From: a virus
DNA length: 64,000 nt
Virus record (IMG/VR): IMGVR_UViG_3300032046_000008
Coordinates: 1-64,000 of that record
Reading direction: 5' to 3' (one strand)
Part shown: positions 4,471-30,680 of the stretch, piece after piece
Numbering within the stretch: position 1 is the first letter of the stretch
Layout of the letters: the number at the start of each line of letters is the position of its first letter
Position numbers and translations under genes: made by a program
Notes under the pieces: generated by a model
Database searches by the model: none
Told to the model about the DNA's origin: nothing
What the model saw: the letters and a program-made list of their open reading frames with translations, nothing else

Positions 4471-4698
4471 TCAAATACCCAATTTGCTCTTACTTCGCAT
4501 TGCTGCAAGTTGTTGTTTCTGGGCCTCAGAGAGTGGTTTATGTGCGCGTACATAAGCATGCTCCACTGCCGACGTATATCCTGTCCAGCCACGGAGCAAC
4601 AACCTCCTAGCATAAAGATCAAAGTGTTCTGGTCCACATTCTTCATAAAGAGCCTTGCAAGCCTCACAATGATTTGGATCTAGTTTGTCCCGTTTCAT
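4471..4698 (-). CDS. Hypothetical protein
   Basis: 75 aa. MKRDKLDPNHCEACKALYEE carries CxxC, followed by HFDLYARRLLLRGWTGYTSA and a helical C terminus (LSEAQKQQLAAMRSK). Possibly a small zinc-dependent DNA-binding protein. ATG overlaps the stop of the homing endonuclease gene upstream by 4 nt. Confidence 0.55.
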   Translation of the reverse strand: MKRDKLDPNHCEACKALYEECGPEHFDLYARRLLLRGWTGYTSAVEHAYVRAHKPLSEAQKQQLAAMRSKSKLGI

Positions 4699-5033
4699 GG
4701 TGTCCTTCCTGTTGTTATCTGGGCCTCGAGAGCCCGCAGCGTAATTTGGCGTGACACAGTATCCTCAAATTGACCATAAATTGCCCACAATTCTTTTTCT
4801 TTGAACCTAACCACAGGTAATGTAAATCGTTCAAATAATTCTTTATCACGAACTGCGTCCTTCTCAGAATCATGCCAATATTCTCCATCAGCCTCAAAAG
4901 CCAAATGATGCGGTACCAACTTGTGAGTCTCGGACATTTTGCGTTTGGTCTCAATCGAATGTTTCCTGCCAAGCATTGCCTGACGCATTTTCTCGATCGA
5001 TTCTGGTTTGTGCCGAAAGCCAATTTTGGGCAT
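4695..5033 (-). CDS. Homing endonuclease: NUMOD3 motif plus Vsr/EDxHD-type nuclease
   Basis: 112 aa. The N terminus has a NUMOD3-type DNA-binding motif (GRKHSIETKRKMSETHK), seen in free-standing phage homing endonucleases. The middle (FEADGEYWHDSEKDAVRDKE, then LPVVRFKEKELW) matches the Vsr/DUF559 EDxHD nuclease core. Its last ~20 residues (DTVSRQITLRALEAQITTGR) nearly repeat the C terminus of the gene immediately upstream, and its ATG overlaps that gene's stop as TAATG. It therefore looks inserted at the 3' end of that gene, bringing a copy of the target's end. Confidence 0.75.
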   Translation of the reverse strand: MPKIGFRHKPESIEKMRQAMLGRKHSIETKRKMSETHKLVPHHLAFEADGEYWHDSEKDAVRDKELFERFTLPVVRFKEKELWAIYGQFEDTVSRQITLRALEAQITTGRTP

Positions 5034-6409: not shown

Positions 6410-6749
6410 TGGTTCCTGCCCTCATTTGATGTTTCCTCGGTTCCGATGTGCTGGCCCACTTCTCTAAGAATGGTACGAGCCGTCTCTGAAAGTTGTCGCC
6501 ATTAAGACCTTCGGCCTTTATTCGCAATGTTGGAATAAAATATCGTTCTTCCAAGAAGGCATCTCGCTCTCTGTCGCTCTTTCTCGTGTGGCCTGGACCA
6601 TCAATCTCTACGCAGACATGGAATTCAGGGAGGTACAAGTCCAAAACCTTTGGAGTGAAATCTTGACATTCACTCAAGTAACTTATCTGGAGTTTATCCA
6701 GATATTTCTCCGCCTGCCGGTGCGGGCCTGTCCTTGTCGTTTCATCCAT
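6402..6749 (-). CDS. DUF559/Vsr-like endonuclease
   Basis: 115 aa. LDLYLPEFHVCVEIDGPGH followed by SDRERDAFLEERYFIPTLRI is the DUF559 (very-short-patch-repair-like) core, with acidic and His catalytic residues in D-L-Y and EIDGPGH. The N-terminal QAEKYLDKLQISYLSE fits the family's first helix. It may nick DNA in repair or be a homing-type nuclease. Overlaps the methyltransferase gene by 8 nt and the Cas4-like gene by 8 nt. Confidence 0.75.
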   Translation of the reverse strand: MDETTRTGPHRQAEKYLDKLQISYLSECQDFTPKVLDLYLPEFHVCVEIDGPGHTRKSDRERDAFLEERYFIPTLRIKAEGLNGDNFQRRLVPFLEKWASTSEPRKHQMRAGTNA

Positions 6750-7440
6750 TGCTAATTCTTTTCAAAGCAATTTCTACAGCCGTAGCATCGGAATCACATC
6801 CCAGGAATTTTCTAAATGTTTGCTGGCATGCCACAGCCATTGTCCCAGATCCCAACATCGGATCAACTACAAGATCCTCTGGCCTTGTGCTACCAAGAAG
6901 CAACCTCTTCATAAGCCTGATAGGTTTCTGCGTTAGGAACCCAACCTTTTCTTTTGAAAAGGAACACTGATCCACTGGCTCAATATCATCCCACCAGTCG
7001 CTATATACAAATCCTCCACCTCCTCCACCACCCCTACGCTCATAGTTCTCTGGCTTCGGCCTCTCAATTCTTCTCCATCTCCAATCCTTGCCAGCGAAGC
7101 CTGCAATTAACTGATATTGACGAGGCCAGAATCTAGTAGAACGGCTCTTGAATCCGCTAATCCAGCCATTGCGCCAAGCAATACATCCTCGCAGTGGAGG
7201 CAATTTACCTCCGAGCTCGAAGAACATTTGAGGATCACCATGCAAATAAACAATGCCCTTTAGACCAATAAGTTCATAGGACCTACAAACTATCTTGCAC
7301 AGATTCTCTAAATCAAAGCCACCGAAGGCTCCGTGCCCAAATGGCGGATCAATATAGACCATATTAGCAGAATCAATCTGCGACAAGAATTCTAAAGCGT
7401 CAGCTTGACAGATTTTGATGCTCGGTTTTGTCTGCTCCAC
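6742..7440 (-). CDS. DNA adenine/cytosine-N4 methyltransferase
   Basis: 232 aa from a GTG. Catalytic motif IV DPPF at residues 31-34 and the SAM-binding motif near residue 196 (VVDPMLGSGTMAVAC) in the order IV then I, the beta-class amino-methyltransferase layout. KVGFLTQKPIRLMKRLL is the usual motif X region. A Gly-rich loop (RRGGGGGGGF) lies in the middle. No cognate restriction enzyme is next to it, so it is probably a solitary phage methyltransferase for protection or packaging. Overlaps the RecA-like gene by 41 nt. Confidence 0.85.
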   Translation of the reverse strand: MEQTKPSIKICQADALEFLSQIDSANMVYIDPPFGHGAFGGFDLENLCKIVCRSYELIGLKGIVYLHGDPQMFFELGGKLPPLRGCIAWRNGWISGFKSRSTRFWPRQYQLIAGFAGKDWRWRRIERPKPENYERRGGGGGGGFVYSDWWDDIEPVDQCSFSKEKVGFLTQKPIRLMKRLLLGSTRPEDLVVDPMLGSGTMAVACQQTFRKFLGCDSDATAVEIALKRISNG

Positions 7441-8380
7441 AATGTCTAAGCTCCTGTTTCAATAATTCAAATGCCTCTGGCTGGTCGCAGAAATGTTGCC
7501 TTGCCGCCGCTCGCCCGAGCCATTTGAGAGACTGCCAGGAATAATACGGTGGCCGTGCCACAATAAGACCTCTGTTGATAGCCTCATCAATATAAGATTG
7601 CAACAAATCCAGTTGTCCTTGAAAGCGGAAAGGAATACTCGCCACGCCTTGTGGTGTCCCTGTCTTGTTCTTCTGGCAAGAGACCTCTAGTGTGAATCCC
7701 ACCCGCTGAGTCCCTTCTAGAAGCCATCCCTCTCTTCTTGTACGCAGAATTATATGACTGTAGTGTCGCTGCCCTCTGCCGCCAGGATAAACTTCTTCTG
7801 GGCCATAGCCTCCCATGCTAGAACGCAATTGATTAATGGCAATGAAAATTGCCTGTTTGTTCAAAGGCATTATGGTGTAGAAGAGCAGATTAACTAACTG
7901 GGCCAGCAAACCCATGGTCTTCTCTTCCGCAGATCTCTCCAAAATTGGCATTGGAGTCATTGAAGCAATACTGTCAAGAATGATGAGCCCTAATTCCTTG
8001 TCGCTTTCAATCATAGAACGCATAACATCGATGGCTTTTTCGCCAGTTGTCGGTTGACTAATGATCAATTCTTCAGTATTGACTCCGCTAGCCTGCCACC
8101 AAACTTCGTCATAAGAACGCTCAGTATCTACCAGGAGCACATGCGAGCGCCCTTCTTGCTCTTGTTGCGCCTTTGCAGCGTACTGGGCAATCAGAGTCTT
8201 GCCTGTGCTCTCTGGTCCCACCATGAGCGTTGTGCGCCCATAAGGAAAGCCACCGTTTAGTATCTCATCAAGGGAAGGAATACCTGTCGCGAGGCGGCGA
8301 ATGTGTAGACGTTCATCATTCCCCTTCATGAGCAGTCCATCTTTTATGAGTTTGTCTACGGAAGGCAGAGTCGTCGTCAT
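7400..8380 (-). CDS. RecA/UvsX-like recombinase
   Basis: 326 aa from ATG 8380 (ATGA overlap, GGAG six nt upstream). Walker A GPESTGKT at ~55-62 and Walker B LGLIILDSIASMTP, then a NQLRSSMGGYGPEEVYPGG loop as in RecA/RadA, placing it in the RecA superfamily. It lacks the long RecA C-terminal domain and resembles phage UvsX-like or Sak4-like recombinases in size. It would pair homologous strands together with the SSB at 20074 and the nucleases downstream. Confidence 0.85.
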   Translation of the reverse strand: MTTTLPSVDKLIKDGLLMKGNDERLHIRRLATGIPSLDEILNGGFPYGRTTLMVGPESTGKTLIAQYAAKAQQEQEGRSHVLLVDTERSYDEVWWQASGVNTEELIISQPTTGEKAIDVMRSMIESDKELGLIILDSIASMTPMPILERSAEEKTMGLLAQLVNLLFYTIMPLNKQAIFIAINQLRSSMGGYGPEEVYPGGRGQRHYSHIILRTRREGWLLEGTQRVGFTLEVSCQKNKTGTPQGVASIPFRFQGQLDLLQSYIDEAINRGLIVARPPYYSWQSLKWLGRAAARQHFCDQPEAFELLKQELRHCGADKTEHQNLSS

Positions 8381-8883
8381 GCAATTCTCCAAGCATCCGC
8401 CGCCGACCCAAATTCAAAGCCCAGTTCTTTCCAGGCAGGTATCAGAATCTGTTGTTCCAACAATACTATATTCCCACCAATCTTTGGGTAAGCAATGACA
8501 AGCCTCTTCAGGGAAAGAGAACTGGCTAGACCAATTCCATCAGAAAATCGTGAATGGCGTTGCCAGAATTTGCGGCTAGTCCCATTCGGCATTCCCGCGT
8601 ACTTATCATAAAGAGTCAACCGGCTGGCGAACAAATCTGGAGGCAATAGATTATCACGAGCATAACGCTCATAATAAATGCCAGGAACCAATTGCCCCCA
8701 GATTGGCGAACCATTGCGCGGCTTGGGATGGAGTTCTACATCTCGCTCAAGCCAATGACTATTGGAAAAGAAATCATAGAAGACTCTGAAGGCTCCATAA
8801 GGTAGAGATTCTGGCCTTTCCAAAATAGAATGGGCCTCTATTCCCAACAAATGCAAGAGTTGAAGAGCCAATATTTCATCCAT
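8377..8883 (-). CDS. Hypothetical protein
   Basis: 168 aa, not recognised. Aromatic-rich (GAFRVFYDFFSNSHWLERD, VPGIYYERYARDNLLPP, LYDKYAGMPNGTSRKFWQRH). It sits between a coiled-coil gene and the recombinase with a 4-nt overlap, so a recombination accessory role is possible but unproven. Confidence 0.6.
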   Translation of the reverse strand: MDEILALQLLHLLGIEAHSILERPESLPYGAFRVFYDFFSNSHWLERDVELHPKPRNGSPIWGQLVPGIYYERYARDNLLPPDLFASRLTLYDKYAGMPNGTSRKFWQRHSRFSDGIGLASSLSLKRLVIAYPKIGGNIVLLEQQILIPAWKELGFEFGSAADAWRIA

Positions 8884-8885
8884 GG

Positions 8886-9155
8886 TTAGTTTCCTTTAAG
8901 AACTTCGATCTGCCGCTGTAGATCAAGCAGGGCGCGGGCCTCTCGAATTTCTCGTCTCACATACTCGACACGCTGACGATCTGTAACGCTTAGACCGAGA
9001 TCATCTAGTAAACGATCCGCTGTGAATAGTGCCCGCTCTAATGGTTGGTCGGTCTTCGCCAGCATGTCCTTCAGAGCCACATTCTCAGCACGGAGGTCTA
9101 CGTTCTCGTTCTCCAGGACCGTCCAGCGTTCAGTTTCCTCATTCCCGAATGACAT
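8886..9155 (-). CDS. Hypothetical coiled-coil protein
   Basis: 89 aa, mostly heptads (VLENENVDLRAENVALKDML) and a second helical region ending REARALLDLQRQIEVLKGN. No catalytic signature. Probably an oligomerising accessory protein. Lies two nt upstream of the next gene. Confidence 0.6.
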   Translation of the reverse strand: MSFGNEETERWTVLENENVDLRAENVALKDMLAKTDQPLERALFTADRLLDDLGLSVTDRQRVEYVRREIREARALLDLQRQIEVLKGN

Positions 9156-9158
9156 CGC

Positions 9159-10088
9159 TCATCTCCCTATGGCCTTCATGAATGCTCTTCCTGCCATTAC
9201 CCAATCTGGATACATTTCGCAATGCCTAACCCAGTCTGGGCCAAGCGCAGAACTCTTGTATCCGCAGCGATACACTGCCAGAAAATCAGATGCAAACTCC
9301 AAGAACGGCATCTGACTTTGTACCATATAACCATCAAGTATTTGATTCAATTCTCCAATTAATACATCGTGCGGCAACAAGCCTTTGAAGAGCGGTCCAG
9401 GTTTCGGCAATCTCGGCAATGGGCTTTCATATTCATCCATCATGCGCCTGGTAATTCGATGTGCCGGACCATCCTTATACAAGTGTAGGCTATTGCTAAT
9501 GTGAGTCTGAATACCAATCTTCACGCCTAAACGAGCCGCAATATATTGGAGGAGAAAACTAAATTCTGCCTGATTAATGGCATAGAGGCCCCAATGAATA
9601 TCATTGCTGCGGCAATAGATGGTAAGATGCAGCCTGCCATTACGTAGTTTGAAGGTTAGGATGCTATTGCAAGGCGGATCATTTGAATCTGTAGTCAAGT
9701 CTTCAATTCGCCAGATAAGAAGTTGTGCTCGTCTGTCGTTAGGGTCGGCTTGCAGTCTCTGGATGACATTCTCTATCTGATCTGCTATGCGCTCGCCATA
9801 GGCCCCAGACATCTTGACTCCGTCGTCAGAAAACTGAAGAATGTTCTTGTTGTACGGCGTTAGGGCTGCCACATCATCTCGTCCTGCCAACACCCAGAGA
9901 GATTCGCTCAGGGCCAGAAAGGGGTTCCATCTTCTTCCAGGAACAATATGCACCATGCGCTCGGGATATCGAAAGACAGTTGCTACATTGAGAAATTCAA
10001 GTGTATCCTTAATTGTGCCTCTATTTCTAACGGACACATATTGACCTAGCAATAGCAAAGTTGAGAGTTGTCTACGATAAAGATGCAT
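9159..10088 (-). CDS. Thymidylate-synthase-like enzyme, probable dUMP hydroxymethylase
   Basis: 309 aa from ATG 10088; a TTG 27 nt earlier is an alternative. ThyA-fold signatures: catalytic Cys140 in NDPPCNSILTF, RSND (160-163) matching the phosphate-binding RS-D, GLYAINQ with Asn172 at the position that selects dUMP over dCMP, and HISNSLHLYKDG. In phages with hypermodified thymine a member of this family makes 5-hydroxymethyl-dUMP for incorporation. The island upstream needs that substrate, so hydroxymethylation is inferred; ordinary thymidylate synthesis cannot be excluded by eye. Confidence 0.8.
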   Translation of the reverse strand: MHLYRRQLSTLLLLGQYVSVRNRGTIKDTLEFLNVATVFRYPERMVHIVPGRRWNPFLALSESLWVLAGRDDVAALTPYNKNILQFSDDGVKMSGAYGERIADQIENVIQRLQADPNDRRAQLLIWRIEDLTTDSNDPPCNSILTFKLRNGRLHLTIYCRSNDIHWGLYAINQAEFSFLLQYIAARLGVKIGIQTHISNSLHLYKDGPAHRITRRMMDEYESPLPRLPKPGPLFKGLLPHDVLIGELNQILDGYMVQSQMPFLEFASDFLAVYRCGYKSSALGPDWVRHCEMYPDWVMAGRAFMKAIGR

Positions 10089-10111
10089 CGGACAACAACT
10101 TCTGAAAACTA

Positions 10112-11014
10112 TCAAGACGCCATAACCTTATCGTAGTGTTGCTCGAGCCATCCAGATTCCTTCGGCAAGAAATAGCGCTTGCGGCCCTTGCCATTCTGGA
10201 GCTTTTTGTATTTCATCCACTCGCAGCATGAATGTTCTATATTGCGCAGATTAAGAACCTTGTTTTGCCAGAACGGCATCTCCATACCATCAAAGCACTC
10301 TGGCTGTGCATGTCGCAGTTCCAGAAGTTTCTCATATTGGATCTTGTAATTTCTACTCCCTGTTAGAAAATAAAGACCGAGTCTTGCTCCTGGTCCAAGG
10401 TTGGCCCAATCATCAATACTCCAGGGCAACAGACCATCGACCAGAAGAAGATCACATACGACCTCGTAGGCCGTAAACATAGCCACTCCATTTAGTTGTG
10501 TTAATTCTTCGGCAAATCCCTTCAGATCCATGCACGGAGGAATTTCTCCGACACTAGGAACTTGTTCCCAAGCCTCGTCCATAAACTCTATGAAGTTTGT
10601 TATGCGATCCGATACACGAGGTAATTGCAAGGTTATGTATGCCTTGGAGTAGATCGAGCCAATCTTCTGAAGCCCGCGCAGCTTGTCTTCAATATCTTTC
10701 CTAGACCATTCCCAATCTCGCAATTCAGGAAACTTGCCAATAGCGGACCATGTATCAACGCTATTCACTAATCTGTAGGCTAAGGTTTGCCAGATAGCAT
10801 CACCCAGATTGCCCTTGAAACAAGACGCTATATTCTCTAGATACCAGACCGTGCCTCTATCTAATTCTCTGTAAACATTTGTAAAGTGATATTGCGCCAA
10901 AACAAGATCCTCTGTCCATGGTGGAGACTGTTTGAGAAAAAAACGACGATGCCAGATCTTATGCCTCTCCGCGACAAATCTAAAGAAGTCTTCATCCCTG
11001 CTCGGCGGTTGCAA
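10112..11014 (-). CDS. 5-hmdU DNA kinase helical-domain / aGPT-PPlase family protein
   Basis: 300 aa. The start has the typical pattern of the HMUDK-helical/alpha-glutamyl-putrescinyl-thymine pyrophosphorylase superfamily: FFRFVAERHKIWHRRFF, PPWTEDLVLAQYHFTNVYRE, LDRGTVWYLENIA. Family members have a helix-hairpin-helix glycosylase-like fold and act on modified thymines in DNA, either as the helical part of the 5-hmU kinase or in replacing the pyrophosphate by an amine. The P-loop kinase is a separate gene at 19293. KNGKGRKRYFLPKESGWL-like basic C terminus may bind DNA. Confidence 0.75.
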   Translation of the reverse strand: MQPPSRDEDFFRFVAERHKIWHRRFFLKQSPPWTEDLVLAQYHFTNVYRELDRGTVWYLENIASCFKGNLGDAIWQTLAYRLVNSVDTWSAIGKFPELRDWEWSRKDIEDKLRGLQKIGSIYSKAYITLQLPRVSDRITNFIEFMDEAWEQVPSVGEIPPCMDLKGFAEELTQLNGVAMFTAYEVVCDLLLVDGLLPWSIDDWANLGPGARLGLYFLTGSRNYKIQYEKLLELRHAQPECFDGMEMPFWQNKVLNLRNIEHSCCEWMKYKKLQNGKGRKRYFLPKESGWLEQHYDKVMAS

Positions 11015-11390
11015 AATGTTCCTCTTTCACAAGTTGCAATTCCTGCCAGGCAGAGACCAGGCTGCCGAGAATTCCCCCTCCGCCAATGTCCTCGCCATAG
11101 CGAAAGATGAGAGCTAGCACATTAAAAACTGTGTCTACTATCTCTTCTTCTATCAACCGAACATTATCTGATTGCATGACCTTGTTAATTCGACGATCAC
11201 CGATTTTGTCATCCAAAAGATATTCTTCGCCATGCTGCTCATACCGACTTATGACTTGAAGCACAAGATCAAATGGTAGAAAAGCCAGAAAATCTTCAAG
11301 AAGATCCGTAGAATCAGGATACCATTCCTTAGTTTTATTCAACCACAACCGCGAAGGACTCTGCGAGGAATACTGGCTCGCGGGATCCAT
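10992..11390 (-). CDS. Hypothetical protein, possibly MazG-like helical
   Basis: About 132 aa from ATG 11390; the start is uncertain because it overlaps the polymerase 3' end. The C-terminal half contains RLIEEEIVDTVFNVLALIF, an EE..D pattern on one helix that recalls all-alpha NTP pyrophosphatases, but the second acidic motif is not obvious. Alternative start near the TTG around 11341. Confidence 0.5.
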   Translation of the reverse strand: MDPASQYSSQSPSRLWLNKTKEWYPDSTDLLEDFLAFLPFDLVLQVISRYEQHGEEYLLDDKIGDRRINKVMQSDNVRLIEEEIVDTVFNVLALIFRYGEDIGGGGILGSLVSAWQELQLVKEEHFATAEQG

Positions 11391-14175
11391 CTGTGGAGTT
11401 TCGACCTCTGATCTCGAGCGCTGGTCCACCATGCACCTCCTTACAGAACTGGCTCCAAAGATCTGGGAACATGATTGCTCGGAAGGTTCCCTTTGTGTTC
11501 CCTAGCGTCACATATCCCATATATCGTCCTTTGTTGTACCCTGGTTTCACAATCTCTCGCTGACTCATGTCGATCAACCAACCGGAGATGCTTGATTTGC
11601 GTACATCGTTGGCTTTCTCGACAAATTCCTGCGAAAGAAGATTCGTGTTGAAATCATAAAGCTCATCCATGATCTTTTTGTCGCCATTGATACCAATAGA
11701 AGTCAAGACTCCTGCTTGTTGGAGCATCATGCGCTGCTTCTCACTAAGAGCTCGTGAGCCCTCTTGTTTCGCCGCCAGATCATCTAAACTCTTAGTTGGC
11801 CTCCTCGCCATAATGGCCATCACAGTTGCCGGCCCCAAACCTCGTATTTTGCCAAGCCCTATACAAACTTCCCCATTGCGAAGAGATGTCTTATATTCAC
11901 TGAAGTTTACATCTGCTGCCCGCCAATGAACTCCATAATGATAACTCTCTAGCAACAAACGAGGAACATCGGTGCATTCATCAAAAACTGCTGCATAGAA
12001 GATTTGTGGATAATATCGTTTATACCATGCCATCTTGTAGGCCAAAGCGGCATAGGTCACAGCGTGAGCGCGATTGAATGCGTACCCTGCGAAGCCCTTT
12101 ATGGCCTGCCATATAAGATTATGATCTCTTGGACATCCTCGTTGAAATCGTTCTTCCATCTTCTTGAAGACTTCAGGATGGACATATTTGATGGCTTCTT
12201 TGATATCATCCTGAGCTGCGTCATCAAAACCTCCTAGAACCCGACATATCTCCATAACCTGTTCTTGGTAGAGAACAATTCCTCGTGTCGAGGCAAGTAT
12301 TGGTTCTATTTCTGGATAAAAATCTGTGAGTTCTGTTGTTCCCTCGCGATATAGATCAACAAAGCCAGCAGCGCCTGGCAACTTCAAGGCATTAACTGCC
12401 ACAATGTCCTCAAAGTTACTCACAGGCAGTCTCTCAAGTACTCGTCTGGCTGCCCAACCATCAATTTGGAAGATCTCTGATGTATCTTTCCTTCGGAATA
12501 CATCGTATACCTTAGGATCGTCATACTCTTCTGGAGCCTGTGCGCCAGATGCTCTTGCCATTTGCTCCAACTGATCCAATGTATTTAGACCAAGTATGTC
12601 GAGTTTGAAGAAACCAAGTTCCTTCAGTGCATACATATCATACTGAGTTGCCATCTGTTGGCTCGAAGCGACCCAGACCAATGGCACTTCTCGCTCCAGA
12701 GGGCGATTCTCATCTGCCAGAACAATACCTGCTGGATGTACAGAGAGATTGAAGTAGAGTCCCTTCATCCCCTCGACAACCTTCCGGACATCCTCCGCCA
12801 AGATACTAAGATCTGTGAATCCCCATTCCCCCACCATGCCTCTGCAAACATCATCCATTCTTGGATTTGGCCAACCAAGAGCTCGCAATACAGAGCGAGT
12901 AGCCCCTCTTGGACCATAATGCCCATATGTTACTATAGGAGCACTATGCGCATACTTCTTCTGGAGGTAATCTAGAACCTCGCCTCTACGACGACTACTG
13001 ACATCAATATCGAAATCTGGAATTGTTGGACGAGCCGGCGAGACTGCTCGCTCGAACAGAAGTCGATGACGTACTGGATCCTCTGTCGTTATGCCAAGAA
13101 TGTGACTTATAAGACTTCCAGCCATGCTGCCTCGCCCAGACACCATAATACCCTGCTTGTGGCACCAGGCGACAAGATCATATGCTACCAAATAGGATTG
13201 CGCTATAAGCGGAGCCTTCTCTAGTACTCTTAGTTCGCGCTCATAGCGCTCCTGATATTCCTTCGGGCGATCCACTTGGAAATATATCTCGCAGAGTTGC
13301 TTCAATCGGGCGATAGGAGCAGATATCTTGGGAACATGCCAAGTACGCTTCTCTAACTCGGGGATTCTGAATTCTCGACAAAGATTTGCTACTTCAATAG
13401 TATTACTAGCAGCTTCTGGCGCACCAATCTTCTCTGCAATTTGATGCATAACATTGGATGGTTTAAGGTAGAATCCCTGCGCATCAAAGACAATACCCTT
13501 GCTCGCAACTTGCCTCGAGCGCAAGAATTGCTGATGAATCTGCTCTCGCTCCTTAGAGATATAATGGCAATCATTCGTCAGAACACAAGGGATACTGAGG
13601 TCGCGGCTAAGTTCCTTCAAGCCTCTGATAAGCAATTTCTGTTGCTCTGCCCATTCTTCATTGCCCGAGTGCCACATCAATTCTAAATAAAAAGCTCCTG
13701 CATGTTTCGCGAGAAGTTCGGCTGCCTGTTTTGCTCGACCATCGCCAGCAACGACCCAGCGCGAGATGATACTCGTGAAGCATCCACTCAGCACAACCCA
13801 ACGCTTCATCAATTCTTCATCTATAAGTTGACGCATAGATATACGAGGCCGGTAGTAGAATTGTCTCTGGGCAATATTGTTAGCGCGGATGAGATCCCGA
13901 TAGCCCTGCTCGTCCATCACCAGAACAGTCAAGTGCTGAGGATAATCGGCTACCTCTTTAGGATCAACAAATAACTCGCAACCAACAATAAATTGCAATC
14001 CTGCCTCGCGGCAAGCCTTGTAACCTTCTACAATACCGCCTAGACTACCATGGTCTGTAAGAGCAAAGGCTGGCTGACCATCTGCCTTCGCTGCTGCAAC
14101 ATAGCCGATAACAGTTGCTTGCCCATCAAGAACAGAGTATTGAGAATGATTGTGAAGATGACAGAAATCAGCCAT
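11335..14175 (-). CDS. dnaE: DNA polymerase III alpha subunit (DnaE-like)
   Basis: 946 aa from ATG 14175 (TGATG overlap). N-terminal PHP domain (CHLHNHSQYSVLDG, LTDHGSLGGIVEGYKAC), palm with catalytic aspartates in PDFDIDVSSRRRGEVLDYL, GRGSMAGSL before it, fingers and helix-hairpin-helix (GLGPATVMAI), then an OB-type end (KGTFRAIMFPDLW). It is about 200 residues shorter than cellular DnaE, trimmed mainly at the C terminus where the clamp and tau contacts lie. The phage thus carries its own C-family replicase. It lies inside the hypermodification island, between the modifier genes and the HMUDK-like gene. Confidence 0.92.
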   Translation of the reverse strand: MADFCHLHNHSQYSVLDGQATVIGYVAAAKADGQPAFALTDHGSLGGIVEGYKACREAGLQFIVGCELFVDPKEVADYPQHLTVLVMDEQGYRDLIRANNIAQRQFYYRPRISMRQLIDEELMKRWVVLSGCFTSIISRWVVAGDGRAKQAAELLAKHAGAFYLELMWHSGNEEWAEQQKLLIRGLKELSRDLSIPCVLTNDCHYISKEREQIHQQFLRSRQVASKGIVFDAQGFYLKPSNVMHQIAEKIGAPEAASNTIEVANLCREFRIPELEKRTWHVPKISAPIARLKQLCEIYFQVDRPKEYQERYERELRVLEKAPLIAQSYLVAYDLVAWCHKQGIMVSGRGSMAGSLISHILGITTEDPVRHRLLFERAVSPARPTIPDFDIDVSSRRRGEVLDYLQKKYAHSAPIVTYGHYGPRGATRSVLRALGWPNPRMDDVCRGMVGEWGFTDLSILAEDVRKVVEGMKGLYFNLSVHPAGIVLADENRPLEREVPLVWVASSQQMATQYDMYALKELGFFKLDILGLNTLDQLEQMARASGAQAPEEYDDPKVYDVFRRKDTSEIFQIDGWAARRVLERLPVSNFEDIVAVNALKLPGAAGFVDLYREGTTELTDFYPEIEPILASTRGIVLYQEQVMEICRVLGGFDDAAQDDIKEAIKYVHPEVFKKMEERFQRGCPRDHNLIWQAIKGFAGYAFNRAHAVTYAALAYKMAWYKRYYPQIFYAAVFDECTDVPRLLLESYHYGVHWRAADVNFSEYKTSLRNGEVCIGLGKIRGLGPATVMAIMARRPTKSLDDLAAKQEGSRALSEKQRMMLQQAGVLTSIGINGDKKIMDELYDFNTNLLSQEFVEKANDVRKSSISGWLIDMSQREIVKPGYNKGRYMGYVTLGNTKGTFRAIMFPDLWSQFCKEVHGGPALEIRGRNSTDGSREPVFLAESFAVVVE

Positions 14176-15002
14176 CAACTACCTATGTTCCAGAATACCA
14201 CTGGTGGTGTTAAATCATGAATATGGGCACACAACCAATTCCATGCTTTTAAGTCATAATAAGGATTGCAAGGAAAAGGGCTAGTGCATTCAGCTCTATC
14301 TCTATAGGAATAACCCTCATCTATGATAATTGTTCCCTCCCCCAATCGCTTTCTCAGCAATTTCTGACTGTGACTGTAGCCCATATGAGCCACTAATTGC
14401 GCTCGCCCAGACAAACCCGCCGCCACGCCCTTTGCTATTGTGCCTGTACTGACTGAGACAATCCATGTGCCCCCAAACAAGCTGTCAGGAGTGTATTGCT
14501 CCACTTCTTTCTTGGTAGCTTCCGCACTTTCTGCAAGTTGAAGTCCATTGGGCAACATATGCCCTCTGCCACCTGTCAATTCCAACAACTGCCGCTTGGC
14601 TTGATGGAAAAGAATAGCAGAACGCCCTGCCTTTAGTGGTATAAGTTTCGCCCCTAACATGCAAGCTCTGATCTGACCTTCACGCATTTCAATGTCGTGT
14701 CGGTAAAAAGGATAGAAATTATAGCATTGATGACCTAGTGCCTTGCAAACATAAGCCGCTCCCCATCCAGCTTTAGAATGATACGTATCCAGGACCCCGA
14801 TTATAGAATCTGCTGGGTAATTATTCAAGTACTTCGCTAATCCTCTGATCTTGGAAAATTGTGGTCCTTCAGGGCAACACAAATCTTCGCGCTTGACCCA
14901 GACAGTCTTATCCCCCACCTTGTGCAATTCCCAAGGTGTGTCTTCTAAAACAATCCTGGTCTGCGCATTAATCGACAAAGACGAATCCGCGTTTGCGATC
15001 AT
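14175..15002 (-). CDS. Fold-type II PLP-dependent enzyme (ACC-deaminase/threonine-synthase-like)
   Basis: 275 aa from ATG 15002; earlier in-frame starts exist but overlap the upstream gene more. VWVKREDLCCPEGPQFSKIRG matches the beta-family PLP pattern, the Lys of SKIRG being the likely Schiff-base residue. VLDTYHSKAGWGAAYVCKALG and VSTGTIAKGVAAGL (Gly-rich phosphate loop) complete it. In hypermodification systems PLP enzymes tailor an amino acid already attached to thymine, e.g. the decarboxylation in phage M6. Whether this fold type II protein decarboxylates, deaminates or eliminates is open. Confidence 0.75.
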   Translation of the reverse strand: MIANADSSLSINAQTRIVLEDTPWELHKVGDKTVWVKREDLCCPEGPQFSKIRGLAKYLNNYPADSIIGVLDTYHSKAGWGAAYVCKALGHQCYNFYPFYRHDIEMREGQIRACMLGAKLIPLKAGRSAILFHQAKRQLLELTGGRGHMLPNGLQLAESAEATKKEVEQYTPDSLFGGTWIVSVSTGTIAKGVAAGLSGRAQLVAHMGYSHSQKLLRKRLGEGTIIIDEGYSYRDRAECTSPFPCNPYYDLKAWNWLCAHIHDLTPPVVFWNIGS

Positions 15003-15702
15003 GTATCCACATTTCCTCTGCCTGATGTTGGCCAGGTTTAGCCAAGAAGTTTGCTTCGCCTGCATGATAAGCGGCACGAGAAATAGTGTAGCCAAACATA
15101 TCAAAGAGATATGACGAAACCAGAGCTGTGTAATCCTCTATCCTAACAATAGGAACACCAAAATGCTTTGTATAAAGTTTACAATTGTGTCCCAGGTGGG
15201 TTATTGCCGTATCTGTCCACAGAACTGCTTGTGGATCTTTAGCAAATAATCTAGAAAAAGGTTCCGACCAATCACTACCTTTGATGTGCTGATACAATGT
15301 CCAACTATTGAAATCCGCTATGAAAACATCGCCGTCTGCGACCCCCATAACCTGCCGCGAATCTGCCTTAATAATTGACATATGAGAACAAGCACCAAAC
15401 ACCCTTTGCAGATGATCAATGCAATTTTGATCTAATTCAAACACTGTATGAGATAAAGGCACAAGTACTTCTTCCGCTATCAAAGCACTTCTGCCTACCC
15501 CGCCAAAAAATTCCACAACTCTCAAACTCTTGGGAAGAGAAGAAAGTAACCATTCTATCGCCAAGGCTCCGCCTGCAACATCTGCTAGTCTTCTTTTCAA
15601 CTGGACAAAGAAAGGAGCAAATTGGACAGCAGTTGGGTAATCTTTTGCCAGATCTGATTCTGAGATAGGAAGCAACCATTTTTCGCAAATCAAGGCTTTC
15701 AT
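14968..15702 (-). CDS. SAM-methyltransferase-like Rossmann protein
   Basis: 244 aa. SLRVVEFFGGVGRSALIAEE is motif I of class I methyltransferases, HTVFELDQNCIDHLQ the acidic motif II, and MSIIKADSRQVM the next strand. The motif IV region reads VFIADFNSWTLYQHIKG, with no DPPY or NPPY, so it is not a standard amino-methyltransferase. Located between PLP and GNAT genes, so it may methylate or otherwise alter the modified thymine side chain; inferred from position only. Confidence 0.65.
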   Translation of the reverse strand: MKALICEKWLLPISESDLAKDYPTAVQFAPFFVQLKRRLADVAGGALAIEWLLSSLPKSLRVVEFFGGVGRSALIAEEVLVPLSHTVFELDQNCIDHLQRVFGACSHMSIIKADSRQVMGVADGDVFIADFNSWTLYQHIKGSDWSEPFSRLFAKDPQAVLWTDTAITHLGHNCKLYTKHFGVPIVRIEDYTALVSSYLFDMFGYTISRAAYHAGEANFLAKPGQHQAEEMWIHDRKRGFVFVD

Positions 15703-15703
15703 C

Positions 15704-16549
15704 CTAGGCCTCCATCAAAGAATAATGCGGTATCCTATATGCCATTCGTCTTTGCATGCCCATACCTTCTTTCAAGTTATCTGCTGTATCTCCACAACAA
15801 CACACAGATATACCAAGATCGTCATGAACAAAACTCATCCAAAATGCCCATATCGCTTTAGAGAGAAACTGACTAGAATAATCATGCTTGGCTTGTGTAA
15901 TAACTGCCACTCCAGAATAAACATAGCCGCCAACCAGACCCGAAATGATTCCGTTTCCATTTAGGGCAAAAAACATTCTCGAATTGGCAAAATGACAATG
16001 GGCTCTTATCATCGCTCTGTAATGCCCTCGCACAACCATAAAGTGGCGCTCCTTGGCCTTTTCATACCATCGTTCCAGAATATCAAACATTTGCTGTTGG
16101 CCAATTTCGTCCCTGGAGACTTCGACAAACCTGTATCTTCTTAAGGCAGAGCGTATTTGCCACCGTTTGTTGGCACTCAATTCAGAATTTTGCCAAGAAG
16201 AAAAAGAATACCACACAGATGCTTTCACCAACCTGATATAATCTAGACACTCCGGCAATAGGAGAGAGTTGAATCTGGTAATTCCCAAATTCTTAAGGCA
16301 TAACGTTGCCATGTGGTAGAACTTCTCAGTCTTTTCTCCCTCCCAATGAATCAAAGTAGCCTGTGTCTTCTCTTTCCGAAGATACCAAACAGCCTCCATC
16401 ATATTTAGGCGCAAAAGACAAGATCCTGGTTTGGAATAGGCAAATGTGGAAATAACCTCTGGAAAACTATAGTAGCTTTCACTTGGCAAAACCTCTATTC
16501 CTTCCAAGGTATATTGTGGAATTATTGCCAAAGATGCACTATGCGTCAT
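15704..16549 (-). CDS. GNAT/FemX-like acyltransferase
   Basis: 281 aa from ATG 16549 (an ATG 18 nt earlier is possible). LRRYRFVEVSRDEIGQQQMF, then YEKAKERHFMVVRGHYRAMI, then ALNGNGIISGLVGGYVYSGV and KAIWAFWMSFVHDDLG are the usual strand-helix pattern of GNAT-fold (FemABX/phosphatidylglycerol-lysyltransferase-like) proteins. Acyltransferases occur in phage thymidine hypermodification clusters, where some acetylate aminomethyl-dU. The substrate here is inferred from neighbours. Confidence 0.6.
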   Translation of the reverse strand: MTHSASLAIIPQYTLEGIEVLPSESYYSFPEVISTFAYSKPGSCLLRLNMMEAVWYLRKEKTQATLIHWEGEKTEKFYHMATLCLKNLGITRFNSLLLPECLDYIRLVKASVWYSFSSWQNSELSANKRWQIRSALRRYRFVEVSRDEIGQQQMFDILERWYEKAKERHFMVVRGHYRAMIRAHCHFANSRMFFALNGNGIISGLVGGYVYSGVAVITQAKHDYSSQFLSKAIWAFWMSFVHDDLGISVCCCGDTADNLKEGMGMQRRMAYRIPHYSLMEA

Positions 16550-16556
16550 TATTTTC

Positions 16557-17996
16557 TCAGACCACATTCATTCTTGCCATCAGTACTTCGTCAAGCGAAG
16601 GTAATCCCCATAATTCTGCATCTGTTGCCAAATTAGGATTACGACCTCGCTCTTTGGCACATTCCGGCAAAGGCGAGGAATCAAGCAATTGCCAATCCTC
16701 TTCCCGTCCCTCTAGTCTTACAGAACAATAATCTTTGTACTGCAAAGCCTTGGCAGATAACAGAACTACGTTGCGGCAAGCCTTTGTTCCATATTCCTCA
16801 CAATACAAACAACCCTTGCGATAGCATCCTGGCAATGGTTCAAACCTAGCATCTGGTGCTGACCGATAATGAATGGGCACGGCTGGACCATGACATTGAT
16901 CGGCAGTGGTGAACCAAGGCGCTAAGTTCGCGCCTCCTTTGCCATTGTTATAATATTCGTAGCACAAGCTCATGGTGATGTTGTGTTGTCGTGTCCAAGG
17001 CAACAATTCTTGCAACCAAGCCACTCGCGTATCTTGACGAATCGTGCGAACACCACCGATGATTTGTGTCATAAGGGATTCAAACTCCTCCACCCCTTCT
17101 AGATGACCTCGCCGGAGTCTGTCCAACAATTCTTTGTAAGAACCCAGATTAGATTCGCAGAACTTAAAAATAACATGATTTGCTCCTGCCTGGGCCAAGC
17201 AGCGCACCAACTCCTTCATATCATCCAAGGTGACAATCCCAGGCAGCACAGGATTGACCTGGATACTAATGTAAATGCCCAAATCCGCGTATTCCCGTAT
17301 AATCTCATACAATTGATACAAATGGAACGATCCTGGGGATAATCTCCTGAAGACCGCCTCATCTGCCACATTCACACTCCACTCCATATAAGAGTATGGA
17401 CTTTGCAACAAAATATCTTTGGCCCAATCGGGCGGAAGCTTCCGACTTAAGTAAAAAAGAGGAATACCTTCATCCACAAACACCTTGGACAATCGCTCTA
17501 CAACATGATAGCGAGTCTCTAGATTCTGGAAAGGCTCTGTGAAACTTGATATGTAAGCTGGACCCACGACCATCATTTTGCTAAGGCGATTACGAATAAA
17601 ATCTGGGTAGTCTGGGTTTACCGCCGGCAAACCTGTTGCATGATAACCCCTGCTCCCAAAATCTATATAACAGAATTTGCAGCCTATCTCGCAATATCCA
17701 GTGTACGGTATAGTCAATATTGCTTCGGAATAACAAGGTCGAGGCCTTACCTTATCAGAGACATGCTTGTCTTTGTACCATCCTCGGGGATTAGGACTAC
17801 TAGAAATTAATAGATGTTTAACTGGCTCGGTGTACACTTTTGCAGGTTTCGTTTTGCCACCCAGCACCATGCTTATTGGTATAGATTGATATGGACCTTG
17901 ATCATCCACGCCCTCTTCTATTGGAGCAGCCAAGCGAAACCGTCGTTGCCGATATTCCTCATCCGATTCCGATTGTGGCTTCCCAACCTCGTTCAT
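16557..17996 (-). CDS. Radical SAM enzyme, probable modified-thymine isomerase
   Basis: 479 aa. Radical SAM CxxxCxxC at C102, C106, C109 (GYCEIGCKFCYIDFG), preceded by KVRPRPCYSEAILTIPYTG as in spore-photoproduct-lyase-like members. A second Cys group near residues 400-418 (GCYRKGCLYCEEYGTKAC) may bind an auxiliary cluster. Phages with amino-acid-modified thymine (e.g. M6) use a radical SAM protein to rearrange the amino acid on the base before PLP-dependent decarboxylation; the adjacent PLP gene fits that order. Sure of the superfamily, fairly sure of the pathway, unsure of the substrate. Confidence 0.8.
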   Translation of the reverse strand: MNEVGKPQSESDEEYRQRRFRLAAPIEEGVDDQGPYQSIPISMVLGGKTKPAKVYTEPVKHLLISSSPNPRGWYKDKHVSDKVRPRPCYSEAILTIPYTGYCEIGCKFCYIDFGSRGYHATGLPAVNPDYPDFIRNRLSKMMVVGPAYISSFTEPFQNLETRYHVVERLSKVFVDEGIPLFYLSRKLPPDWAKDILLQSPYSYMEWSVNVADEAVFRRLSPGSFHLYQLYEIIREYADLGIYISIQVNPVLPGIVTLDDMKELVRCLAQAGANHVIFKFCESNLGSYKELLDRLRRGHLEGVEEFESLMTQIIGGVRTIRQDTRVAWLQELLPWTRQHNITMSLCYEYYNNGKGGANLAPWFTTADQCHGPAVPIHYRSAPDARFEPLPGCYRKGCLYCEEYGTKACRNVVLLSAKALQYKDYCSVRLEGREEDWQLLDSSPLPECAKERGRNPNLATDAELWGLPSLDEVLMARMNVV

Positions 17997-18046
17997 CCAG
18001 ACGCCTCCAATCTCGTATTTTCAAAGTTATCACCATCGATCAAGAA

Positions 18047-19084
18047 TCAGATGGGAACATCCTGGCGATTACCAATTCCCTCAGGCCATTCGTCCCAAGT
18101 CGCAAGGACATCTTGCGCCTGTATGTCACCAGCGCGTGCACGGCGAATCAATTCCTCGGAGACTGGAATTCCCTCGTGTCCCTCGGTTGTCTCGAGAAGT
18201 TCACCAAGTCGTGCCGTGCTAATCTGGCACAAATCCCGATCAGCAAGATCCTTGTCTTCCTCAATACCAATGTCAATGTCATCACCAGGAATTGGCACAT
18301 ACTCTGCTAAGGTATTCGCCAGAGAACCCCAGCCAATCAAAGCCTCTTTTATATCACGGCAGTCCTTGCCCACATAGTAATGGCCTGTTTGCGTGGCTTT
18401 GTATTTGCACAATATAGTTTCTATTTCCTGCACATTTATGGGCCGCTCGCTACGAGGAGGAGCCACCCAATCCGAAAACTGTTCCTTTAATGCCGATACA
18501 ACATAATCAAGTTCCTGGTCGTTCAGCGGAGCCTTCAGATCACCCTTCAATATTACCGCCGCTCCTTTGCGCACTTCCGCATATATGCAAAGGGAAGAAC
18601 CAGGAAACTCTATTTTGGCCAATCCCAGTCGTTCCAACATATCTGCAAGTTTCCATGTTATCCATGGACCAAACATTGGAACTGGCGCGCATGCATCTTG
18701 CACCTGATTGAATGTGACACACCTGCATAATTTCTCAAAGAAAGCCTCAATAGCCTCTTCACACGGAAAGTATATAAGAGTCCGTTGCGCCTGCTTGCCA
18801 CGGAAATGTCTACGCTCCATGCCCCTCGGGAGAGTTCGCAACGTTTCCTGAAGCCAATTCTGCCAATCATCGTGATCTGTTGCATAACTCGCAACGCCTG
18901 CGTGGTAGAACAACCAATAAACCCAAAGCCAACGACAAAGAGAACCGCGATTTAGTAAATTATTGTCTATCCCTCGCTGGAGCATTATATATATAGGATC
19001 AAGATCGCCAGTTGTAAGCAGGCTCTCCCCGAATTCTACGCAAGCCTGCCAATGAACAGGATTAACCTTGGTTGGAACATCCAT
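18047..19084 (-). CDS. Amino acid:DNA transferase-like protein (aGPT-PPlase/ADDT clade)
   Basis: 345 aa. The N-terminal two thirds match the all-helical superfamily that installs amines or amino acids on 5-phosphoryl-hmU in DNA: WLFYHAGVASYATDHDDW, then LPRGMERRHFRGKQAQ, then MFGPWITWKLADMLERLGL. The family replaces the (pyro)phosphate on 5-hmU by glutamate, glycine or putrescine in known phages. The C-terminal ~130 residues include GHYYVGKDCRDIKEAL and a long acidic helical tail not obviously part of the domain. It lies upstream of the radical SAM gene and downstream of the kinase, matching pathway order. Confidence 0.75.
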   Translation of the reverse strand: MDVPTKVNPVHWQACVEFGESLLTTGDLDPIYIMLQRGIDNNLLNRGSLCRWLWVYWLFYHAGVASYATDHDDWQNWLQETLRTLPRGMERRHFRGKQAQRTLIYFPCEEAIEAFFEKLCRCVTFNQVQDACAPVPMFGPWITWKLADMLERLGLAKIEFPGSSLCIYAEVRKGAAVILKGDLKAPLNDQELDYVVSALKEQFSDWVAPPRSERPINVQEIETILCKYKATQTGHYYVGKDCRDIKEALIGWGSLANTLAEYVPIPGDDIDIGIEEDKDLADRDLCQISTARLGELLETTEGHEGIPVSEELIRRARAGDIQAQDVLATWDEWPEGIGNRQDVPI

Positions 19085-19091
19085 TCTTGTA

Positions 19092-19292
19092 CTATCTCCT
19101 TAAATTTCTAGCATAGACGAATGTCAAGATCACCACTCCTGGCAGAAGACCTGTAGCTCTGTTCAGAGCATAGACAAACCATAAGCTCTGTCCAGCAAGC
19201 CCAAACACCCAAGCCCAGTAACTTTTATTTCCGGCCAGCCACATATTGACAAGCGTCATGACACTCAACATCCAGGGTATGTAATCCAGCAT
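19092..19292 (-). CDS. Small integral membrane protein
   Basis: 66 aa with two hydrophobic spans (IPWMLSVMTLVNMWLAG, SYWAWVFGLAGQSLWFVYAL) and a third short one (LLPGVVILTFVYARNLRR). The MWLAGN...GL-GQ-LWF pattern recurs in many small phage membrane proteins of unknown role. Between two hypermodification genes but unlikely to act on DNA. Confidence 0.7.
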   Translation of the reverse strand: MLDYIPWMLSVMTLVNMWLAGNKSYWAWVFGLAGQSLWFVYALNRATGLLPGVVILTFVYARNLRR

Positions 19293-19856
19293 CTAACCAT
19301 ATACCTTCGGCAGAGCAATCCCCTCCAGAGCGAACACATCCAGCAACTGACGGTATGCTCTCTCATGATTAAGAATCCGTACTATTTCGCCCGCTTGCAG
19401 AGCTTTGTTAAGAATGCTTCGAACTCTCTCAAATTTGTCAAAAATATTGTTCGGATTGATGGTCCTGCCATTGTTACGGATATAGACTCGGCTGAGGCAA
19501 ACTTCCTTCGGTGTATCCAGAAATACCCAAGTAAATTGTCCTGGACCAAGTTCTTGAGAAAGATTATGCCATCGTCCCCAGATTGCGCCTACGATCATAC
19601 CCTCAAATAGCACATTGCCCCGTTCGGCATATTCTCGCACCATAGGTTCTATACGGTCAAAGGGTTTGATAGAATCACATCCGCCAGTCTTCATTGTATA
19701 AGGGCCAAGAACAAACGTGTTGAATTCTGGGATATGAAAGACCTCTGCGGTTCCTCTGGCATCAAAGCCAACAGCCTGATGATCATGCTCAATTAAGAAT
19801 CGTCTCACCAGTGTTGTCTTGCCACTGCCAAAGGTGCCGCAAATTAGAAATATCAC
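19293..19856 (-). CDS. P-loop kinase, probable 5-hmdU DNA kinase
   Basis: 187 aa. Walker A GTFGSGKT at residues 7-14, Walker B-like FTWVFLDTPKEVCLSRVY and a lid with RNNGRTINPNNIFDKFERV, the pattern of the P-loop kinases that phosphorylate 5-hydroxymethyluracil in phage DNA. GNVLFEGMIVGAIWGRW is a substrate-binding-type strand. Its neighbours (ADDT-like, radical SAM) and the separate helical protein at 10112 support a DNA-base kinase over a mononucleotide kinase. First gene of the island in transcription order. Confidence 0.75.
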   Translation of the reverse strand: MIFLICGTFGSGKTTLVRRFLIEHDHQAVGFDARGTAEVFHIPEFNTFVLGPYTMKTGGCDSIKPFDRIEPMVREYAERGNVLFEGMIVGAIWGRWHNLSQELGPGQFTWVFLDTPKEVCLSRVYIRNNGRTINPNNIFDKFERVRSILNKALQAGEIVRILNHERAYRQLLDVFALEGIALPKVYG

Positions 19857-28288: not shown

Positions 28289-28558
28289 TTACATCGTTGG
28301 AGCAAGTTCCTTTGGAGAGCTCAAAACTTTGAGATATTTCTCATGCAGAGAGACAAGTGCATAACCACCACGGAGTTCTGGACGAGAAACTTCTATAGTC
28401 CATATTCCTGGTTCTGGAGATTCCTCTCCTTGCCATCGTTTGCCAATTCTTCCACCTTCTCTAGTCTGATGGCAGATAATTCCTTCTTTCCCTCTGGCCC
28501 ATTTGGGAATTGCTTTAGAAGATTTGATTTTGACTTTCGTTCCACGTTCAATGTTCAT
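28289..28558 (-). CDS. KOW/SH3-like small protein
   Basis: 89 aa from ATG 28558, overlapping the HNH stop as ATGA. MNIERGTKVKIKSSKAIPKW and KEGIICHQTRE resemble the start of a KOW/SH3-type barrel, with IWTIEVSRPELRGGYALVSL as later strands. Possibly nucleic-acid or protein binding. Confidence 0.5.
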   Translation of the reverse strand: MNIERGTKVKIKSSKAIPKWARGKEGIICHQTREGGRIGKRWQGEESPEPGIWTIEVSRPELRGGYALVSLHEKYLKVLSSPKELAPTM

Positions 28559-29157
28559 CCCAATTGGCGAAGAACTTTCTTTATCGATCTTATCTGCGCG
28601 TATTCGCAACCAGATCGCTCCATGTCTTTTATTTGTTCCTCAATAAGTTGTCTTAGTCCTTTACCATTGCGTGATGGAGGATTGCTTGGGCCTTGCTGTA
28701 AAAACCCTGCGAGTTCAGGACGTTCGACCAAAAGAGTTTTTAGATAGGGTTGAATACTATTCTTGTTGCGCATGGAAGATTTCTTAATTCGTAGACGCAA
28801 TTGCCCGCGTCTTCTTCCTAATTTCAACCCAGGATGATTGAACTTGGGTTTGTTGCAATCTTGGCAGCATGAAACAAGATTCTGAGGGACAGTCTTGCCT
28901 TTAGGCCATGGAACAACATGATCAATATTGGCATTTTCATAAGTGACTTCACGTTTGCAATATTGACAACGATATCTGTCTCTCTTTAGGACGAACATTC
29001 TTAATTTAGCAGGAGCATAATGATTATTTTTGAAGGCTTCCTGCAAGAAGAGAGTTTCTTTTCTACATTCTGGACTGCACCAACGAGATTTCTTTTCAAG
29101 TCGACTTTGACAACCTCTGCAATAATAAGGTTTTAGAATTCTTTGTTTATTTTTCAT
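28555..29157 (-). CDS. HNH endonuclease
   Basis: 200 aa. An N-terminal zinc finger (YYCRGCQSRLEKKSRWCSPE) precedes the HNH core: RMFVLKRDRYRCQYCKREV, ANIDHVVPWPKGKTVPQNLV, SCCQDCNKPKFN, with two CxxC pairs around the catalytic His. The basic C-terminal half (LGRRRGQLRLRIKKSS) could bind DNA. Probably a free-standing homing-type nuclease. It is preceded by a gene-free, hairpin-rich leader (29158-29345). Confidence 0.85.
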   Translation of the reverse strand: MKNKQRILKPYYCRGCQSRLEKKSRWCSPECRKETLFLQEAFKNNHYAPAKLRMFVLKRDRYRCQYCKREVTYENANIDHVVPWPKGKTVPQNLVSCCQDCNKPKFNHPGLKLGRRRGQLRLRIKKSSMRNKNSIQPYLKTLLVERPELAGFLQQGPSNPPSRNGKGLRQLIEEQIKDMERSGCEYAQIRSIKKVLRQLG

Positions 29158-30669: not shown

Positions 30670-30680
30670 GATTAAGTCTA

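Follow-up and report, generated by a model that had tools for sequence, protein, structure and literature searches.

An M6-type thymine hypermodification operon of an uncultured virus carries two accessory enzyme families that may tailor its product

Which base does a virus make when its genome encodes what reads as a known thymine hypermodification pathway together with two further enzymes? Thymidine hypermodification shields phage DNA from restriction, and the known hypermodified-thymidine end products are few, though the gene combinations are many. The question is raised by an array of genes at positions 9159-19856 of the window that we analysed, which covers bases 1 to 64,000 of an uncultured virus record 101,905 bases long (IMG/VR record IMGVR_UViG_3300032046_000008). 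An earlier note, made from the letters of the window, had listed in this array a P-loop kinase, a helical kinase-like protein, an amino acid:DNA transferase (ADDT), a radical S-adenosylmethionine (SAM) enzyme, a pyridoxal-phosphate (PLP) enzyme, an enzyme resembling thymidylate synthase (TS), a GNAT-like protein and a SAM-methyltransferase-like protein, and had suggested a complete pathway to a possibly undescribed thymine derivative. We found that the core of the array corresponds by homology to the enzyme set of Pseudomonas phage M6, and that the methyltransferase and the GNAT protein belong to families that recur beside the PLP gene in other viral loci.

Core enzymes of the operon and their counterparts in phage M6

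The gene-like frames of the array all lie on the minus strand, including each of those named in the earlier note, and most of them abut or overlap: the PLP and polymerase genes overlap by 4 nucleotides, as do the helical kinase and TS-like genes, the radical SAM and GNAT genes overlap by 11 nucleotides, and a single nucleotide separates the GNAT and methyltransferase genes. Because the genes overlap or abut, we regard them as one operon, in which the order of transcription is P-loop kinase, a 66-amino-acid protein, ADDT, radical SAM enzyme, GNAT, methyltransferase, PLP enzyme, a DNA polymerase of the PolIII alpha type, a 146-amino-acid protein, the helical kinase part and the TS-like enzyme.

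Profile searches placed three of the core proteins in curated families of the 5-hydroxymethyldeoxyuridine (5-hmdU) pathway. The P-loop kinase scored above the cut-off of PF18748 (HMUDK_HMUD1, E = 1.6e-17) and matched M6 gp54 by tblastn (5.7e-19), the helical protein scored above the cut-off of PF18723 (HMUDK_hel, 1.6e-46), and the ADDT matched PF18724 at 1.1e-15 (58.5 bits against a cut-off of 26.2) and aligned in the PDB with both 8z2m, a 'Glycinyltransferase' (4.6e-36), and 25qc (3.9e-39). The helical protein, which the earlier note had rightly likened to this family, makes up half of one kinase step with the P-loop protein, as gp55 does with gp54 in M6. We considered whether the kinase might be split in an unusual way and rejected this, because the same pair of genes is present in M6, Bordetella phage FP1 and PaMx11, among others.

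The radical SAM enzyme was 39% identical to M6 gp53 over 86% of its length (5e-80), with a CX3CX2C motif that was invariant in the alignment, and the PLP enzyme shared 43–45% tblastn identity with homologues from M6, Bordetella and Stenotrophomonas phages (43% with M6 gp52) and kept the conserved lysine. Together these two proteins matched ~65 related phage records, mainly M6-like phages of Pseudomonas and Bordetella. The TS-like enzyme matched phrog_5131 (2.2e-63) and PF00303 (1.3e-22), was 29–33% identical to homologues from M6, PaMx11, Bordetella and Rhizobium phages, and had a PCN motif in common with M6 gp58. Its Arg-Ser-Asn-Asp residues and the asparagine that contacts dUMP (N181), to which the earlier note had drawn attention, were kept in all six aligned homologues; the CMP hydroxymethylase MilA has no asparagine at this position.

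Homologues of all six core proteins were present in M6, in Bordetella phage FP1 and in Stenotrophomonas phage Bhz59. Phage PA-SR01, which we compared as our guess at the source of a Pseudanabaena phage match, had no homologue. The DNA of M6 contains 5-(2-aminoethyl)-deoxyuridine (5-NedU) (PMC6449724), and M6-like cassettes comprise a hydroxymethylase, a kinase, a radical SAM enzyme, a PLP enzyme and aGPT-PPlases, located upstream of a polymerase gene (PMC9476957). Judged by homology, the core of our operon belongs to an established type of system, the M6 (5-NedU) set in particular. The reading of the array as a thymine hypermodification pathway was thereby borne out, with every core enzyme matching either a 5-hmdU-pathway family or an M6 homologue; of the phages with which it had been compared, M6 was well chosen, and phiW-14, ViI and SP10 are poorer comparisons.

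A methyltransferase family and a tandem-GNAT family beside the PLP gene

Neither the methyltransferase nor the GNAT protein had a match in Pfam, PHROG, NCBIfam or a named phage, and tblastn of both against 50,697 phage records returned nothing at E<=0.1. Megablast of the window against 50,697 phage records likewise gave no match, placing the virus in a remote lineage, and single-protein scans of viral contigs with the methyltransferase, GNAT and radical SAM proteins found no matches. We therefore relied on loci fetched from viral contigs (designated L and a number) by means of alignments of the radical SAM and PLP proteins with their named-phage homologues (80 and 45 loci), and ran iterated profiles over the 12,119 reading frames of these loci. 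Only a motif scan for the methyltransferase and an alignment scan for the GNAT were independent of selection by radical SAM or PLP. Iterated profiles identified 16 methyltransferase copies in other loci (15 of them distinct) beyond the window's own, and GNAT relatives in three other complete modules. When the tested sequence was excluded from its own profile, the window's methyltransferase was still recovered at 2.9e-29 and its GNAT at 4e-27, indicating that the families are genuine and did not arise from the iteration.

Among 90 distinct loci with the radical SAM gene, 66 had the PLP gene, 13 the methyltransferase and four the GNAT, with the window the only locus to have both of the latter. 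The methyltransferase gene directly adjoined the PLP gene in 13 of 16 copies (window included), several of which overlapped it. In two of the 13 (L119 and L123) the PLP gene was followed by a different radical SAM protein, such that the trio of methyltransferase, PLP and radical SAM genes outlives a change of radical SAM type; these trios lie at L119:1605-6034 and L123:8201-13027, and have unassigned neighbours of 349–363 and 278 amino acids. Searching 2.9 million viral contigs for the motif TDSAxxK[LF]HLN as a DNA pattern returned five stretches, all in contigs holding these modules, and the same motif in bacterial and archaeal genomes returned three stretches, none of them homologous to the methyltransferase. 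On a tree of the 90 radical SAM proteins, presence of the methyltransferase required 12 changes for 13 carriers, no fewer than with shuffled labels. The gene comes and goes freely, as an exchangeable tailoring gene would.

The fold of this protein was predicted with good confidence (AlphaFold2 pLDDT 84.6, from a 14-member alignment). Foldseek matched the model to 1410 PDB chains at E<=0.001, the listed ones being nearly all class I SAM methyltransferases, to which a PDB profile search also pointed; the model has a Rossmann fold, and the GxG of motif I is present. By its predicted fold the protein is thus a class I SAM methyltransferase, with methyl transfer its predicted activity. An ordinary DNA amino-methyltransferase was a candidate that we rejected, as there was no DPPY motif and no Pfam match, and the family profile misses the phage's true DNA methyltransferase. 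That separate enzyme (6742-7440, phrog_67, with a DPPF motif) is encoded downstream of the operon.

The GNAT gene directly adjoined the PLP gene in L040, L096, L112, L131/L132 and L133. The alignment scan found seven loci, in all of which the PLP gene was adjacent except L137, where the GNAT lies beside what reads as a class III aminotransferase; a scan of 84,980 bacterial and archaeal genomes detected no relatives. The L137 stretch (7511-12404) places the GNAT near this aminotransferase-type PLP enzyme, a short-chain dehydrogenase/reductase and a P-loop kinase-like gene, with no ADDT or M6-type radical SAM gene detected, and is possibly another modification route. At L131:3104-9925 and in L132, the GNAT and PLP genes share their surroundings with two further radical SAM-like genes and one that resembles a DNA methyltransferase, with no kinase or ADDT detected.

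The GNAT model, of medium confidence (pLDDT 74.6, from seven sequences), was a tandem GNAT, matched by Foldseek to other tandem GNATs at 5e-9 with clavulanate CBG and VipF first by E-value. The TM-scores were highest to 2hqy, lysyl-PG synthases, FemX and Sba18 (0.58–0.60, versus 0.47–0.51 for tandem GNATs dependent on coenzyme A (CoA)). The CoA loop R/QxxGxG/A was absent at the beta4-alpha3 site from both halves of the window's GNAT, and at that site from six other members; the sole match to the pattern in the family (L137 residue 195) lies elsewhere. An invariant lysine is present near the C terminus. Searches of Pfam and of PDB profiles gave no match that would make the protein a member of FemAB, DUF2156 or Acetyltransf_6. 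From this medium-confidence model we lean toward an aminoacyl-type rather than an acetyl-CoA donor, which would make the protein a putative N-(amino)acyltransferase.

For both proteins, then, the folds suggested in the earlier note had no Pfam support but were confirmed by structure prediction and Foldseek, and independent relatives were found. The methyltransferase assignment stood; the GNAT proved to be a tandem protein that lacks the CoA loop and is unrelated to the known acetyltransferase. Both families are genuinely additional to the core, as had been proposed; they are not peculiar to this phage, because they recur in other uncultured phages.

Proposed pathway and its alternatives

For the order and chemistry of the core steps we draw on the M6 and PaMx11 biochemistry that Lee et al. 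are said to have worked out in 2018 and 2022. In the M6 route, as the 2022 study reportedly describes it, glycine is transferred, the radical SAM enzyme isomerises it from N to C, and the PLP enzyme decarboxylates it. Applied to our operon, the TS-like enzyme would make 5-hydroxymethyl-dUMP, which would enter DNA as 5-hmdU, and the two-part kinase (19293-19856 and 10112-11014) would phosphorylate its hydroxymethyl group. The ADDT would then swap the phosphate for an amino acid that is probably glycine, which the radical SAM enzyme would shift from N- to C-linkage, and the PLP enzyme would strip the carboxylate to leave a 2-aminoethyl group, the exposed amine of which the methyltransferase and tandem GNAT would N-methylate and/or N-(amino)acylate. 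The basis for this pathway is gene content, homology, operon packing, folds, and the recurrent linkage of the two accessory families to the PLP gene.

Both families are tied to the PLP gene, the enzyme of which leaves a free primary amine in M6, and it is on that amine that both enzymes would most simply act. We consider it fairly probable that a thymine hypermodified as in M6 (5-NedU type) is formed by the operon and that the methyltransferase and GNAT then tailor it further by acting on the amine of the PLP product. On this reading the base itself would be the target of both extra enzymes, in the form left by the PLP enzyme, and the end product would most likely be a relative of 5-NedU with an N-methyl and/or N-(amino)acyl group. 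That the end product is undescribed, as the earlier note had supposed, is plausible, and depends on the two accessory families.

A product no different from that of M6, namely plain 5-NedU (or Calpha-glycinyl-thymine), would leave the two accessory enzymes to act on protein, host RNA or some other target, or to regulate the pathway. In M6 the core alone is enough for 5-NedU, and neither gene is present in many of the related modules (the methyltransferase is missing from 77 of 90); we nonetheless think this unlikely, given that the two genes, embedded in the operon with overlapping frames, turn up again next to the PLP gene of distantly related viruses, and that their motifs are rare or absent outside such modules. 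Somewhat less unlikely, though still improbable, is that the GNAT is a conventional acetyltransferase yielding N-acetyl-5-NedU, like PaMx11 gp48, which we take to acetylate 5-aminomethyldeoxyuridine. Acetylation is a known last step in thymine-hypermodification biochemistry, the fold is that of a GNAT, and the CoA-dependent tandem GNATs 2wpw and 6wqb had the top Foldseek E-values. The missing CoA loop in the window's GNAT and its six relatives, the lack of detectable sequence similarity to gp48, and TM-scores that favour FemX, MprF and Sba18 all argue for a different donor.

Two further alternatives concern the methyltransferase and the amino acid. Instead of N-methylating the PLP product, the methyltransferase might esterify the carboxylate of the glycinyl base to a methyl ester or transfer an aminocarboxypropyl group from SAM. 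L023, which has the methyltransferase with radical SAM and ADDT genes and no PLP gene detected, would suit this idea, as would the presence of nicotianamine synthase (3fpj) among the Foldseek matches; L023, however, is a partial locus, and the predominance of methyltransferase copies adjoining the PLP gene leads us to doubt it. We are similarly sceptical that an amino acid other than glycine is used, with different radical SAM and PLP chemistry in this deep lineage: among solved structures the ADDT is closest to 25qc and the glycinyltransferase 8z2m, and the residues that M6 relatives conserve in the ADDT, radical SAM and PLP proteins are for the most part retained, although the window and L013 form a divergent clade and the ADDT is only 32–35% identical to known enzymes and has a C-terminal extension.

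Several points weigh against tailoring of the PLP product. Sequence does not reveal what either accessory enzyme acts on. Most loci were found through the radical SAM or PLP gene, so the linkage counts are biased and the presence of these genes is partly by construction, and the scattered distribution of the methyltransferase indicates that it is dispensable. The radical SAM protein of the window groups on long branches with that of L013, far from the M6 branch of the 90-protein tree, and its chemistry could have shifted. M6 gp56, which we take to be probably the Nmad5 gene of M6, had no match in the 101.9-kb record; this gene is accessory, with no known pathway step, and PaMx11 likewise has no gene annotated as of the M6 gp56 type. 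L013 also carries the methyltransferase between the radical SAM and PLP genes, and in this nearest relative a DUF2284 predicted metal-binding protein (L013:14805-15560) is encoded just after the kinase gene.

A more specific form of the tailoring reading, in which the GNAT is an aminoacyl-tRNA:DNA-base transferase that moves an amino acid from charged tRNA to the aminoethyl group of the thymine and the methyltransferase methylates the same side chain, strikes us as a long shot of about the same order as the doubtful alternatives above. If true, it would provide a phage genome with a peptide-like, methylated base from translation-derived chemistry, and the first link between aminoacyl-tRNA and DNA base modification; we know of no earlier one. 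The novelty, as far as we searched, lies in the methyltransferase and GNAT families, in the way they recur and in their joint presence in this operon. Lee et al. reportedly already described in 2022 how genes are combinatorially permuted in viral metagenomes, and some of the clusters considered here may already be drawn there. Nearly confined to these modules and tied to the PLP step, the two families are candidates for new base chemistries that six to eight genes expressed in E. coli would be enough to test.

Operon layout and comparison with known systems

Table 1. Genes of the hypermodification operon in the window, in order of transcription.
Feature	Position	Strand	Remarks
5-hmdU DNA kinase, P-loop part (GTFGSGKT)	19293..19856	-	187 aa; M6 gp54 homologue
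Membrane-like protein, 66 aa	19092-19292	-	
Amino acid:DNA transferase (ADDT)	18047..19084	-	345 aa; homologue of M6 gp51, PaMx11 gp46
Radical SAM enzyme, CEIGCKFC	16557..17996	-	479 aa; M6 gp53 homologue
Tandem-GNAT protein, HFMVxxGHY motif	15704..16567	-	287 aa; new phage family
Class I SAM methyltransferase-fold protein (predicted)	14968..15702	-	244 aa; new phage family
PLP enzyme (fold type II/PALP), FSKxRG lysine	14175..15002	-	275 aa from internal ATG; M6 gp52 homologue
C-family DNA polymerase (PolIII alpha-type, PHP domain)	11335..14178	-	phrog_405 6.8e-185; PF07733 5.3e-53
146-aa protein, function unknown	10992..11432	-	
5-hmdU DNA kinase, helical part (HMUDK_hel)	10112..11014	-	300 aa; M6 gp55 homologue
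dUMP hydroxymethylase-type thymidylate synthase	9159..10115	-	318 aa; M6 gp58 homologue

The C-family polymerase, absent from the earlier note's gene list, sits inside the operon (Table 1), and had a homologue at only one other fetched locus, L125, which also carries a PLP-family gene. The 146-amino-acid protein had no relatives in Pfam, in PHROG or by iterated profiles over the fetched loci. Elsewhere in the window, a 537-amino-acid protein (43232-44845) joins an N-terminal tRNA-methyltransferase-like part (phrog_4752) to a beta-1,4-glycosyltransferase-like part (phrog_13126) beside a collagen-like tail fibre gene, and possibly serves tail fibre glycosylation; L004:1939-4635 encodes an 898-amino-acid protein with several glycosyltransferase matches. 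Considering the two proteins together, the phage may glycosylate something, a base sugar being among the options. Two paralogues (784-1539 and 2966-3787) have a common C-terminal domain that reads as an RlpA-type double-psi beta-barrel (GGWPAIATxWATHYGGGxAWGD), and homing-endonuclease/HNH-like frames with a NUMOD-like repeat and an HNH motif (4695-5033, 28555-29157 and 29998-30684) are dispersed in the early region.

Of the known proteins that the two accessory enzymes resemble, FemX, MprF (the LPG synthase) and Sba18 have in common with the window's GNAT two fused GNAT folds, the absence of a CoA loop and a conserved lysine near the end, but they have no sequence match to it, and their known acceptors are peptidoglycan precursors, lipid or streptothrisamine, not DNA. 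Class I SAM methyltransferases such as 3mgg, CysG(N-16) and DnrK share with the window's methyltransferase the Rossmann fold, the GxG of motif I and the aspartate of motif IV, with only 11–17% identity in structural alignments; its motif IV reads DFNxxT, in contrast to the D/NPPY of DNA amino-methyltransferases.

At the level of whole cassettes, that of PaMx11 (ADDT gp46, flavin adenine dinucleotide (FAD) enzyme gp47, acetyltransferase gp48, kinase gp49/50 and TS gp51), which leads to Nalpha-GlyT and 5-NmdU, has the same front end of hydroxymethylase, kinase and glycinyl transfer as the window and also a late enzyme with the GNAT fold. PaMx11, however, uses the FAD enzyme where the window has the radical SAM and PLP enzymes, and its gp48 is a single-domain, 140-amino-acid GNAT that carries a GxG loop; no similarity between it and the tandem GNAT was detectable. 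The cassette of Pseudomonas phage M6 (gp51–gp58) is the closer counterpart, with homologues of gp51, gp52, gp53, gp54, gp55 and gp58 in one array of the window. Identity is only 27–43%, the gene order differs, and the PolIII-alpha-type polymerase lies inside the operon whereas M6 has its own, unrelated polymerase gene downstream; to this M6 set the window adds two enzymes, encoded between the radical SAM and PLP genes.

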